This document shows, in pieces, positions 5,464-18,523 of a stretch of 28,590 bases of DNA. Position numbers and translations under genes: made by a program. This DNA is from Clostridia bacterium. GTDB taxonomy: Bacteria > UBA6262 > WVXT01 > JAUXBS01. Location: assembly GCA_030618495.1 (NCBI GenBank), contig JAUXDE010000007.1:1-28590 (forward strand), given 5' to 3'. The notes under the pieces are model-generated. The model was not told the origin of the DNA and did not search any database. It saw nothing but the letters and a program-made list of their open reading frames with translations. Position 1 is the first letter of the stretch. Every line of letters starts with the position of its first letter.

Positions 5464-6033
5464 ATGATTAAAGAAGCTGATGTTCTGAAAATATTTGAAG
5501 ACAGCAATGCGCTGCTGAATGGGCATTTCCTGTTATCCAGCGGACTTCATTCGGACAGGTACCTGCAATGCGCCCTTGTCCTTCAACATGCCGGGATTGC
5601 TTCGAGGCTTTGCGGCGAAATTGCCGAAAAGTTCAGGGATGACGCTGTTGATGTTGTCGTTTCACCCGCAATAGGTGGGATTGTCGTGGGACAGGAAGTG
5701 GCGAGGGCCTTGAAGTGCAGGGCGATTTTCTGCGAAAAAGAAAACGGAAAAATGGTGCTTCGCAGGGGTTTTAGTGTTGAAAAAGGCAGCAGGGCTATCG
5801 TTGTTGAAGATGTTATAACTACGGGCGGTTCGATCATGAGGGTTGCGGATACCGTTCGCAACGAGGGAGCGGATGTTATAGGTTACGGCTGTATCGTGGA
5901 CAGGTCCGGTGAAGAACAGGACTTCGAGTTGAAGAGTCTTCTGAAAATCCATGTTAAAACATACAAACCGCAGGAATGCCCCATGTGCGCAAAAGGGGTT
6001 GCATTCAGAAAGCCGGGGAGTAGTGCTCCGTAA
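5464..6033 (+). CDS. pyrE: Orotate phosphoribosyltransferase
   Basis: Joins orotate to PRPP to give OMP, the step before PyrF. The 189 residues include the substrate-binding LLSSGLHSDRYLQC (24-37), the SPAIGGIVVGQEVAR loop, the catalytic EKENGKMVLRRGF hinge, and the PRPP motif VVEDVITTGGS at 113-123. The C-terminus has CPMC before a short tail, a pair often seen in this subgroup. The ATG directly abuts the pyrF stop. It is the last gene of the rplU operon. The transcript probably runs on through the structured element to the terminator at 6419-6439. Confidence 0.95.
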   Translation: MIKEADVLKIFEDSNALLNGHFLLSSGLHSDRYLQCALVLQHAGIASRLCGEIAEKFRDDAVDVVVSPAIGGIVVGQEVARALKCRAIFCEKENGKMVLRRGFSVEKGSRAIVVEDVITTGGSIMRVADTVRNEGADVIGYGCIVDRSGEEQDFELKSLLKIHVKTYKPQECPMCAKGVAFRKPGSSAP

Positions 6034-6142
6034 CATAAATTACCGCTATTTTTGAGGCTATAGTCTGGGCAAATTCAAGGCGTGAGGAGTGGCGCAATGT
6101 GGTGACATTGTAACCGACGAAACAACGAAGAAGTCGACCATA

Positions 6143-6412
6143 AGTGCCTTGTTAAACAACTTATGTAATCATAACATGTCTGGATATGGTATGATTGCAA
6201 CGAACGACAACGCCGGCGTGCTGAATGCACGTCAAGGCGAAGGGAGGAAGCAAGTAACCATATACGGATATGACCGTTAATGGTAGAAATTCTTTTAACT
6301 GGATTTTGCATCACTCGTCACTCATTTGCAACAAGCAAACATCGTTTCTCGTTCTTTGAATCCAGTTAAAATAATATCTGTTATGATTACATAGGTTATT
6401 TAACCAGGTACT
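6143..6412 (+). other. Large nested inverted-repeat element, candidate structured RNA or small non-autonomous element
   Basis: The outer arms 6143-6176 and 6379-6412 are complementary over 34 positions: 30 Watson-Crick pairs, two G-T pairs and two mismatches. Two further arms lie inside. Arm A pairs 6184-6190 with 6257-6263 and holds a hairpin (CGCC 6211-6214 with GGCG 6236-6239; CGTGC 6217-6221 with GCACG 6227-6231). Arm B is a perfect 13 bp pair, 6293-6305 with 6359-6371, holding TTTGC 6325-6329 with GCAAA 6335-6339. A separate 6 bp hairpin (6095-6100 with 6105-6110, GGTG loop) sits just upstream. Short ORFs in this stretch (such as 6089-6280) resemble no protein and look incidental. I know no RNA family that fits. 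It could be the 3' end of the pyrE transcript, an independent RNA, or a MITE-like insertion. Confidence 0.6.
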
Positions 6413-6418
6413 AAGCCT

Positions 6419-6439
6419 CCCGAAGGGCTTCGGGTTTTT
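6419..6439 (+). terminator. Intrinsic terminator of the rplU-pyrE operon
   Basis: CCCGAA (6419-6424) pairs with TTCGGG (6429-6434) around a GGGC loop, followed by five T. It lies 7 bases after the nested inverted-repeat element, so both are probably at the 3' end of one transcript. Confidence 0.85.
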
Positions 6440-6618
6440 GGCCTGTGCCTTTGCAACGCTCGGTTTACATACAATTAGTATGCTCACCTCTCGTTGCTTC
6501 GGTTCGACTCAAAATCCTCTAGCAAAAACATCGGGAATTTATGTCACAGAGCATAAAACCCTGCCACAGGGTAATCAAAAAAAACGGTGATGCGGGTAAT
6601 TATTTTTTAGGAAGTAAA
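6440..6618. other. Non-coding gap before the secA leader, little recognised
   Basis: No gene is supported here. A short hairpin, ACCCTG (6558-6563) with CAGGGT (6567-6572), is followed by eight A. GGTTCGACTC at about 6500-6509 resembles a tRNA T-arm, but no tRNA can be folded around it. I could not find a convincing promoter, although one for secA is expected between the terminator and the leader ORF. Confidence 0.5.
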
Positions 6619-6702
6619 TTGAAGGAAGCTATCCTGGTAAGGGAATACCGGCGTATTAATACCGCAAAAAAGAAGGTAAAAGAGAGGAAACGCGCTTATT
6701 AG
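6619..6702 (+). CDS. Candidate 27-residue leader peptide upstream of secA
   Basis: A TTG codon at 6619, preceded by AGGAAG at 6609-6614, opens a 27-codon frame rich in Lys and Arg, beginning [12 protein letters not shown] and ending KVKERKRAY. Its stop lies two bases before the secA ATG. The secA start has no Shine-Dalgarno at normal distance: the nearest GAGG (6684-6687) is 17 bases away, inside this small frame. secA may therefore be translated by termination-reinitiation from it. It is not similar in sequence to SecM or VemP. It could also be chance, since the frame is short. Confidence 0.4.
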
Positions 6703-6704
6703 CT

Positions 6705-9338
6705 ATGATTAAATTAATTATTAAAAAAATATTTGGCAGTAAGAATGAAAGGGAGTTGAAGGATTTTGAGGTTATTGTCGATAAAGTTAATTCCCTGGAA
6801 AAAACAATTTCGGGTTTGTCTGACGAGGAACTTCAGGGCAAGACAGTTGAGTTCAGGTCAAGGTGCCGGGAGGGTGAAACCCTCGATGAAATTCTGCCTG
6901 AGGCATTCGCTGTTGTGCGGGAAACCGCAAAGCGCGTGTTGAACATGCGTCATTTTGACGTACAGCTTGTTGGCGGATTAGTGTTGCACCACGGCAGGAT
7001 TGCCGAGATGGCAACCGGGGAGGGGAAGACTCTCGTTGCCACTCTGCCGGTGTATTTGAACAGTCTCGCGGGAAAAAACGTGAGCGTGGTTACCGTTAAC
7101 GATTACCTGGCAAAGAGGGATTCCGAGTGGATGGGTAAAATCTATAAGTTCCTCGGGCTGTCCGTGGGACTGGTTCAGCATGATATGTCTTCGAGCCAGA
7201 GGCAGGAGTCCTATCAATGCGATGTTACTTACGTTACCAACAACGAAGTGGGTTTTGATTACCTGAGGGACAACATGGCAACGACCATGGATGACTGTGT
7301 CCAGGGTGAATTGAATTACGCTATTATTGATGAAGTCGACAGCATCCTGATAGACGAGGCAAGGACCCCGTTGATTATATCGGGCCCCGCGGAGGAGTCC
7401 ACCGACAAGTACTACAAGGTTAACAGGGTTATACCCATGCTCAAAGGCAAGTTCGTAACCGAGAAGGAAGAAGCGGAGGCAAAAGAACAGGGGGAGGACC
7501 TGGGCAAGGGTTTTGATTATCTTTCGGATGAGAAAGCCGGAACTTCAACGTTGACCGAGCAGGGTATCAGGAAGTGTGAAAACCTCCTCGGTGTTGAAAA
7601 CATTTATGCTGACATTGACAGTGAATGGGTGCATCACATAAATCAGGCGTTAAGGGCATACAATCATTTTAAGAAGGACGTGGCCTACGTTGTGAAGGAC
7701 GGACAGGTTATGATTGTTGACGAGTTCACGGGGCGGTTGATGCCGGGAAGGCGCTGGAGTGAAGGTCTCCACCAGGCGATAGAAGCTAAAGAGAACCTCA
7801 GGATAGCCGAAGAAAACCAGACGCTTGCAACGATAACTTTCCAGAATTATTTTAACATGTACAACAAGCTTGCCGGGATGACGGGTACGGCTATTACCGA
7901 AGCGGATGAATTCTGGAAAATATATAAATTGGATGTTGTTGTCGTGCCTACCAATAAGCCGTTGAGGAGGGGACGCCCTAAAGACGTTATATACAAGACA
8001 AAAAGAGAAAAGGACAATGCTATCATAACCGAGATTGTGGAATTGAACAAGGCGGGACGTCCTATGCTTGTCGGCACGAAGTCAATAGAGTACAGCGAAC
8101 ATTTAAGCAGTATGCTTTCAAGAAAGGGCGTGCAGCATAACGTTTTAAATGCGAAATACCATGAGAGAGAAGCCGAAATAATTGCCCAGGCAGGGCGAAA
8201 GGGAGCCGTTACAATCGCAACGAACATGGCGGGCCGCGGAACGGATATCATACTTGGCGGCAATCCGCCCGATCCGAAGCAACATGAGGATGTTGTCGGG
8301 CTGGGAGGCCTTCACATAATCGGCACGGAGGGGCATGATTCGAGGAGGATAGACAACCAGTTGAGGGGAAGGTCCGGCAGGCAGGGGGACCCGGGTTCAT
8401 CGCGTTTTTACCTGGCGCTTGAAGATGATGTAATGAGATTATACGGTTCGGACAGGATTACCGCGGTCATGGACAGGCTCGGGTGGGAGGAAGACCAGGA
8501 CATTCAGCATCCGTTGATAAGCAGGGCGCTGGAATCAGCCCAGAAAAAGATTGAGGGTATGAACTTTGATATCCGCAAGCAAATACTTGAATTTGATAAC
8601 GTTATGAATAAAAAGAGGGGGGTTATTTACTCCTGGAGGCAGGAGGTTCTCAAGGGTGAAAACATCAAGGAAGATGTATTTGCCATGATGGAAGATGTTA
8701 TTGATGACAAGCTTGACCTTTACGCCCCGCCGAAGGTCTACCCGGAAAAATGGAATATGTCGGAAATAGGCGCGTGGATGCAGCGCTCTTTTGATGTCAA
8801 TTTCAGTATCAACAGGGATGAGCTGGCAGGGTTTACAAGGGAAAGGCTCGGCATGATGCTGGCTGAGAAGATAAGGGAAAGATATGACGGCAGGGAAAAA
8901 GAGGTGGGTGTGGAAGTAATGCGGGACATTGAACGTATGGTAAAACTGCATGTAATTGACAGCAGGTGGAAGGACCACCTCTATGATATGGATCACCTGA
9001 GGAAGGGTATTAACCTGCGCGCGTACGGGCAGAAAGACCCTCTTATTGAATACAAACGCGAATCGGCAAGATCCTTTGACATGATGGAGCAGCGTATAAA
9101 AGAGGAAATAACGGCGCTGATATTCAGGGTTAAGGTAGCGCCTCATATGGTCAGAAGGCCTGAGTCCGGCAGGGAATATGTAAAACCTGCCTCAGGAGGA
9201 CAGGTTGGCAGGGCAGGCGGTCCTTCCGCTGCCCCCGGCGCCGGGAAAAAGAAACCTGCGCCGGTAACAACGGTTGGAAGAAACGACCCCTGTCCGTGCG
9301 GAAGCGGAAAGAAGTATAAAAAATGCTGCGCGCGATAA
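6705..9338 (+). CDS. secA: Preprotein translocase ATPase SecA
   Basis: SecA is the ATP motor that pushes unfolded preproteins through SecYEG. The 877-residue protein has the standard parts in order: Walker [12 protein letters not shown] (about 100-110), DEAD-type [21 protein letters not shown] around D209, the preprotein cross-linking region after it, a second motor domain with [14 protein letters not shown] and [10 protein letters not shown], the helical scaffold and wing, and a C-terminal linker. It ends in a zinc-binding tail [19 protein letters not shown] with C863, C865, C874 and C875, which binds SecB and phospholipid in other bacteria. The ATG at 6705 gives the expected N-terminus but lacks a close ribosome-binding site (see the leader ORF). 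A palindromic repeat follows 23 bases after the stop. Confidence 0.98.
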
Positions 9339-9361: not shown

Positions 9362-9437
9362 AAAACCGGGACGGTTCTGATTTTAAACCATCAATAAAAA
9401 TCAGAACCGTCCCGGTTTTCAGAACCGTCCCGGTTTT
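9362..9437. repeat. Palindromic GGGAC-type repeat 1 with tandem right arm
   Basis: Positions 9362-9384 and 9397-9419 form a perfect 23 bp inverted pair with a 12-base loop; the arm core is CCGGGACGGTTCTGA. The last 18 bases of the right arm (9402-9419) are then repeated exactly at 9420-9437 with no gap. A degenerate partial copy lies upstream around 9343-9359. The element fills the space between secA and lnt. It may stop transcription or stabilise RNA. Its form resembles REP-like repeats linked to Y1 transposases, but no such transposase is in this window. Confidence 0.9.
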
Positions 9438-17550: not shown

Positions 17551-18441
17551 ATGAGTTTTAAGGTATATTTAAATGGTAAGCTGGTGGATAAGAAGGATGC
17601 GAAAATATCCGTTTTTGACCATGGGCTTCTGTACGGTGACGGGGTTTTTGAGGGTATCCGCGCTTATTCGGGCAGGGTGTTTAAATTAAGGGAGCATCTT
17701 ACCCGCCTGTACGATTCTGCCAGGGCTATCAGGTTGACAATTCCCATGAAACCGGAGGAACTCGAGAAGATAGTAATTAACACCCTGAGGGCAAACGATT
17801 TGAAAGACGCCTACATCCGGCTGATCGTTACGAGAGGCATCGGAGACCTGGGGCTTGACCCGGATAAGTGCAAAAGCCCGGGAATAATCGTCATTACCGA
17901 TAAGATTAAACTCTACCCGGAAACATACTACAAGAAAGGACTGGGTGTCGTCACGGTATCAACCAGGAGGAATATCCCTGATGCCATAAACCCATCCATA
18001 AAATCATTGAATTACCTCAATAACATACTGGCAAAGATAGAGGCAAAACTCTGCAAAGCTCCGGAAGCGATATTATTAAGTAAGGACGGGTACGTGACCG
18101 AGTGCACGGGGGATAATATTTTTATCATTAAGGGCAGGTCGTTGATTACACCGCCTTCCTATATCGGGATACTGAACGGCATAACGAGAAAGGCCGTGAT
18201 GAAAATTGCGGAAAAGAACATGGGATTGTCAATAAAGGAGGAAGTGTTCACGCAGTTTCATATGTATACCGCAAACGAGTGCTTTCTCACGGGTACCGCG
18301 GCTGAAATAATTCCTGTCGTAAAAATCGACGACAGAATCATCGCCGATGGCAAGCCGGGGAAGTTCACGGCTAAACTCATAAGTGAATTTAAGAAATTAA
18401 CACAGTCGGAGGGAGTGAAGATTATGGGGACATGTACTTAA
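17551..18441 (+). CDS. ilvE: Class IV aminotransferase, probably branched-chain (IlvE)
   Basis: A PLP enzyme, most likely exchanging amino groups between glutamate and the keto acids of valine, leucine and isoleucine. The 296 residues match fold type IV. N-terminal [21 protein letters not shown] is followed by [15 protein letters not shown]. The PLP lysine is K151 in [24 protein letters not shown] and [17 protein letters not shown] come next. The length and TRGxGxLGL motif favour IlvE, but D-amino-acid transaminase and aminodeoxychorismate lyase share the fold. GGGGAG lies 7 bases upstream of the ATG. The last seven or so codons (IMGTCT and stop) lie inside a palindromic repeat, so the native C-terminus has been replaced or extended. 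Confidence 0.88.
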
Positions 18442-18523
18442 TTGTTTTTCAGGCTAAGAAATTATGTCAGTATTTTATTAATCAATTAAGTACGTGTCCC
18501 CATAATTCCGTGTTCCCATAAAT
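18421..18523. repeat. Palindromic GGGAC-type repeat 2 with extra right-arm copy
   Basis: Positions 18421-18444 and 18483-18506 form a 24 bp inverted pair with one G-T, around a 38-base loop; the arm core is GGGGACATGTACTTAATTG. The outer part of the right arm is repeated imperfectly right after it: 18493-18507 and 18509-18523 agree at 13 of 15 positions. The aminotransferase stop codon lies in the left arm. The layout copies repeat 1 (9362-9437) although the sequences differ apart from the GGGAC core. Confidence 0.88.

Follow-up and report, generated by a model that had tools for sequence, protein, structure and literature searches.

What is the densely base-paired 270-bp segment that lies between pyrE and secA at 6143-6412 of the 28,590-nucleotide Clostridia bacterium contig sequence analyzed here (the window)? 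A preliminary description, made from the sequence alone, had left three options for it: an undescribed structured RNA, a small RNA derived from a 3' UTR, or a MITE-like element. We addressed these options by examining the fold of the segment, its copies within and beyond the genome, the sites at which those copies lie, and the transposase genes that might have moved them.

Architecture of the pyrE–secA interval

The segment had been described as a 34-position outer stem with 30 pairs enclosing two inner arms, and each of these parts is present. The outer arms (6143-6176/6379-6412) form 30 of 34 possible Watson-Crick pairs, whereas the best of 200 shuffles, designed to maintain dinucleotides, reached 23/34, and a small hairpin separates the two internal arms. 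A 412-nt region folds at -132.7 kcal/mol, compared with -100.1 on average for shuffled sequences (z -5.87; 0 of 100 shuffles as low). Both controls bear out the earlier view that the arrangement is beyond chance. The boundaries drawn at that time delimit a real 270-bp unit (hereafter B) but an incomplete picture, as B sits within a 532-bp element (A) whose outer inverted repeat (6023-6054/6523-6554), absent from the earlier description, encloses both B and a terminator-like hairpin. This hairpin (CCCGAAGGGCTTCGGG-TTTTT at 6419-6434) had been taken for an intrinsic terminator following the segment; a terminator-like hairpin does stand there, but it is an internal hairpin of A, outside B, and its sequence recurs, with variation, in other A copies. 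Its T-run reads GGGCTTTTGG in most copies versus GGGTTTTTGG in the window. No ORF of at least 80 aa is present within 6037-6704. The features of the interval are as follows:

5464..6033, plus strand: pyrE (NCBIfam TIGR01367, 8.7e-63), with its last codons and stop in the left end of A
6023..6554, no strand assigned: MITE family A, the outer element, split by B; about 265 bp without B, terminal inverted repeats matching at 26/32
6023..6054, plus strand: left terminal inverted repeat of A, GTGCTCCGTAACATAAATTACCGCTATTTTTG, 32 bp
6141..6143, plus strand: left-hand TAA of B, which with 6412-6414 may form a target duplication of 2-3 bp (CCATAA|GTGCC...GGTAC|TAAGCC)
6143..6412, no strand assigned: inner element, MITE family B (the feature first reported), 270 bp, with copies elsewhere in the genome
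6143..6176, plus strand: left terminal inverted repeat of B, matching the other arm at 30/34 positions
about 6176..6271, no strand assigned: the first of two internal palindromic arms in B, retained in three copies, its basal helix paired at 97% of cells
about 6285..6379, no strand assigned: the second of these arms, its basal helix paired at 93% of cells over three copies
6379..6412, minus strand: right terminal inverted repeat of B, pairing with 6143-6176
6412..6414, plus strand: right-hand TAA of B, perhaps the duplicated counterpart of 6141-6143
6413..6440, plus strand: internal hairpin of A, terminator-like (6419-6434 plus T tract)
6523..6554, minus strand: right terminal inverted repeat of A, matching the left repeat at 26/32 positions
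6705..9338, plus strand: secA, the downstream neighbor (NCBIfam NF009538, 1163.9 bits)

Other repeats lie near genes of the window. A perfect 23-bp inverted repeat, AAAACCGGGACGGTTCTGATTTT, is located at 9362-9419, just after secA, with partial copies of CCGTCCCGGTTTT alongside, and a terminator-like 24-nt inverted repeat (83%) with a 4-nt loop lies between two genes at 755-806.

Copies, nesting and target sites

Searching the host genome (G000; 1.69 Mb in 179 contigs, 98% complete) with positions 6024-6560 returned 41 matches. Besides the window, B occurs in full at two loci, C151:6053-6321 and, on the opposite strand, C1:1021-1289, each 269 bp; complete copies thus number only three in this 179-contig assembly, with the window included. 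They are 87-89% identical, with both orientations represented. Of the partial copies, one is a truncated form at C178:6, and another survives at C92:6478 as a stump of 35 bp. Copies of A without B are found at several loci and measure exactly 265 bp in six cases, four in the host genome and two in the same-genus genome G001, while two shorter ones measure 226 and 156 bp. Ends of the A terminal repeat, at up to three mismatches, occur 25 times in the host genome versus 0 for a reversed control pattern. For both families the same ends were recovered at other copies. As a separate observation, A-family elements at about 1500-1823 of locus L157, from 1326 of L020 and from the start of L161 carry an extra G+C-rich module (GGGGGAGGCAGTGACCGAAGGCTTGCCGAGGGAACGTCACCCCGGGGGAG), making a mosaic variant that occurs in both genomes.

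Beyond these two genomes, the searches recovered neither A nor B. A was absent from 58 other, less related genomes (four of the same order), and the B end pattern had no match in a set of 85,000 genomes, from which near relatives may be missing. Phage and plasmid collections likewise gave no match. In IMG/VR the A end pattern was absent, and the B half-end produced one coincidental match lacking a partner end. Comparison of the non-repeat flanks of A copies between the two same-genus genomes revealed no convincing orthology.

The nesting can be read from the junctions. In five B-free A copies (C129, C103, C92b, C54 and C172) the sequence at this point is GACCGGAATTTAGCC or a near variant of it, whereas in the window the same site of A reads GACCATA-[B]-AAGCC. 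The B stump at C92 is flanked by the same ATA/AAG junction as the window B, and C106 breaks off a short way inside the left junction. At C1, B is embedded in a member of a third family, D, and the matching D copy at C64 lacks it. A is itself inserted in D at GGCTAGGAGG, and the halves GGCTT|GTACTC and GAGTAC|TGGGAGG occur elsewhere. A fourth repeat, C (ends GTGTTGGGTAACATAAATA), sits inside A at C92 and at C147 of G001. We thus recovered three kinds of filled and empty pairs (for B in A, for B in D and for A in D), all of them between paralogous repeats rather than at one locus in two strains. Since these four families are found inside one another, they insert into each other.

The clearest target duplication is CTAG on both sides of an A copy at C137 of G001 (TTCTAG|TGCTC...GAGCA|CTAGTC), and the left flanks of many copies end in TA(G). 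Across copies, the duplication would be 2-4 bp long; it is clear at few copies and, at most others, decayed or never present. Insertion would have been at TA-containing targets, with CTAG in the clearest case.

Multiple copies, both orientations, B-free and B-filled sites, and terminal repeats are direct observations at this point. A and B are both short, lack a transposase gene, and are present as multiple dispersed copies in one genome. The earlier option of a MITE-like element is borne out by the test that accompanied it, as scattered copies were found, and they have TA-containing flanks. We consider it very probable, on sequence grounds, that B is a non-autonomous, non-coding MITE inserted in the 265-bp MITE A of a different family, itself located at the 3' end of pyrE. 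The likely order of events is that A landed at this 3' end, after which B, with its terminal repeats of about 34 bp, inserted into A.

RNA readings and the 3' end of pyrE

An alternative account of the fold is that this is an undescribed structured non-coding RNA whose branched shape is conserved for the function of its transcript. The fold z of -5.87 and three pairs changed on both sides among the three B copies speak for it, but that level of covariation (3 of 94 pairs) was reached by 49 of 500 shuffles, so the compatible base changes proposed earlier as a check show no significant excess; with three sequences only, the test is a weak one. B folds strongly on both strands in all copies, and for two of the three full ones it is the opposite strand that gives the more stable fold (C151, -111.4 versus -89.1; C1, -114.4 versus -96.0). 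Copies also lie in both orientations and within other repeats, and the element is missing from the four same-order genomes. An Rfam scan of the whole window gave 0 matches above the gathering threshold, in agreement with the earlier statement that no RNA family was recognizable, and no promoter-like site was found. These observations leave both the structured-RNA option and the proposed 3'-UTR small RNA without support, and we regard the former as highly improbable.

The pyrE reading frame continues into the left terminus of A, where it terminates as KPGSSAP-stop, versus KPGSR-stop in four same-order genomes; the insertion therefore replaced the end of the gene, and A supplied the new PyrE C-terminus. 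In those four genomes, pyrE has a different gene next door and no element, and in G001 the contig available for the pyrE–secA empty-site comparison ends inside pyrE. The protein with its replaced end presumably stays active.

Once transcribed from pyrE, the nested MITEs would form a long hairpin with branches within the 3' UTR and, as a side effect, may stabilize or terminate pyrE mRNA. A further proposal, additional to the MITE origin, is that the element now serves at this locus as a 3' UTR stabilizer, a terminator or a processed small RNA. It immediately follows the pyrE stop, its T-tract hairpin is better than that of most other A copies, and bacterial MITEs have been reported to alter mRNA stability and to yield small RNAs (PMC10969869, PMC3733652, PMC3049150). 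However, pyrE of the four same-order genomes does without the element, and the window copy bears no sign of selection specific to it; we regard such a role as unlikely.

Candidate transposases and relation to known systems

A transposase acting in trans would be expected to recognize the GTG(C/T)-tipped terminal repeats. Six transposase domains were searched in G000 and G001, and no such partner was found. DDE_Tnp_1, DDE_Tnp_1_6, DDE_3 and DDE_Tnp_1_2 (PF01609, PF13751, PF13358, PF13586) are absent from both genomes. Two rve genes lack ends matching A or B in the flanking DNA examined, and no long-spaced pairs of A ends with a gene between them were found in the 98% complete assembly. The only apparently full-length rve-domain protein seen is a transposase-like product of 331 aa, encoded on the minus strand at L170 (C116 of G000). 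The partner transposase may have been lost, may be unassembled, or may belong to a family other than those searched.

A Y1_Tnp (PF01797) gene is present at C61 of G000 and was considered as a partner, but was rejected as the repeats on its flanks, GGGGACACGTACCTAATTA, show no relation to either A or B. The same gene invites the proposal that A and B are REP/RAYT-type elements moved by a tyrosine transposase of this genome, in line with described terminal-inverted-repeat families linked to Y1-type transposase genes (PMC3733652). Besides the unrelated repeats, the 265-270 bp of A and B with their 32-34 bp terminal repeats contrast with palindromes of 20-40 bp, and we judge this origin extremely unlikely. 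At 18421-18506 of the window lies ATTATGGGGACATGTACTTAATTG, a 27-nt inverted repeat (93%) with a tip like that of the repeats on either side of the C61 Y1/RAYT-like gene (L168); it is probably a miniature derivative of that element.

A and B are accordingly new families of an ordinary, known kind, namely nested bacterial MITEs, and they add to the MITE families of a poorly sampled lineage. The closest match to SecA, at 84%, comes from a MAG labelled Clostridia bacterium CSMAG_2805, and the next one reaches 58%. A candidate new RNA is thereby removed and replaced by a documented nested MITE, with the caution that strong branched folds beside a terminator can be mobile palindromic DNA; the locus also shows a housekeeping gene, pyrE, whose end comes from a mobile element. 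A more speculative extension, to which we assign little credence, is that a transposase type beyond the families tested moved all of these MITE families, at least four in number (A-D), which would have in common similar GTG(C/T) tips, CTAG/TA targets and, for A and B, a similar branched fold; an undescribed group of insertion sequences would then be represented by them in this lineage.

IS481, IS5 and IS630 types are examples of IS elements that target CTAG or TA, as in the clearest A copy. Unlike in those systems, no matching transposase was found here by PF01609, PF13751, PF13358 or PF13586, and the rve genes that were found lack matching ends. The REP/TIR repeats of RAYT/TIRYT transposases resemble A and B in being palindromic and intergenic, and such a transposase exists in this genome, but their terminal sequence differs and A and B are far longer. 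Bacterial MITEs are typically 70-300 bp, non-coding, intergenic and highly base-paired, with terminal inverted repeats of 15-30 bp or more (PMC3733652, PMC10969869). Correia/NEMIS, Nezha, ERIC and QMITE are like A and B in size, terminal repeats, absence of coding capacity, intergenic placement and base pairing, whereas A and B have no sequence match in the collections searched, are lineage-specific, and have a partner IS that was not found. A parallel in organization is offered by the pneumococcal BOX, RUP and SPRITE families, which insert into one another and, like A-D, comprise several folded families near gene ends with terminator-like hairpins (PMC3049150, PMC10969869); the likeness is one of description, and the present lineage differs in that four or more families have similar GTG(C/T) tips.
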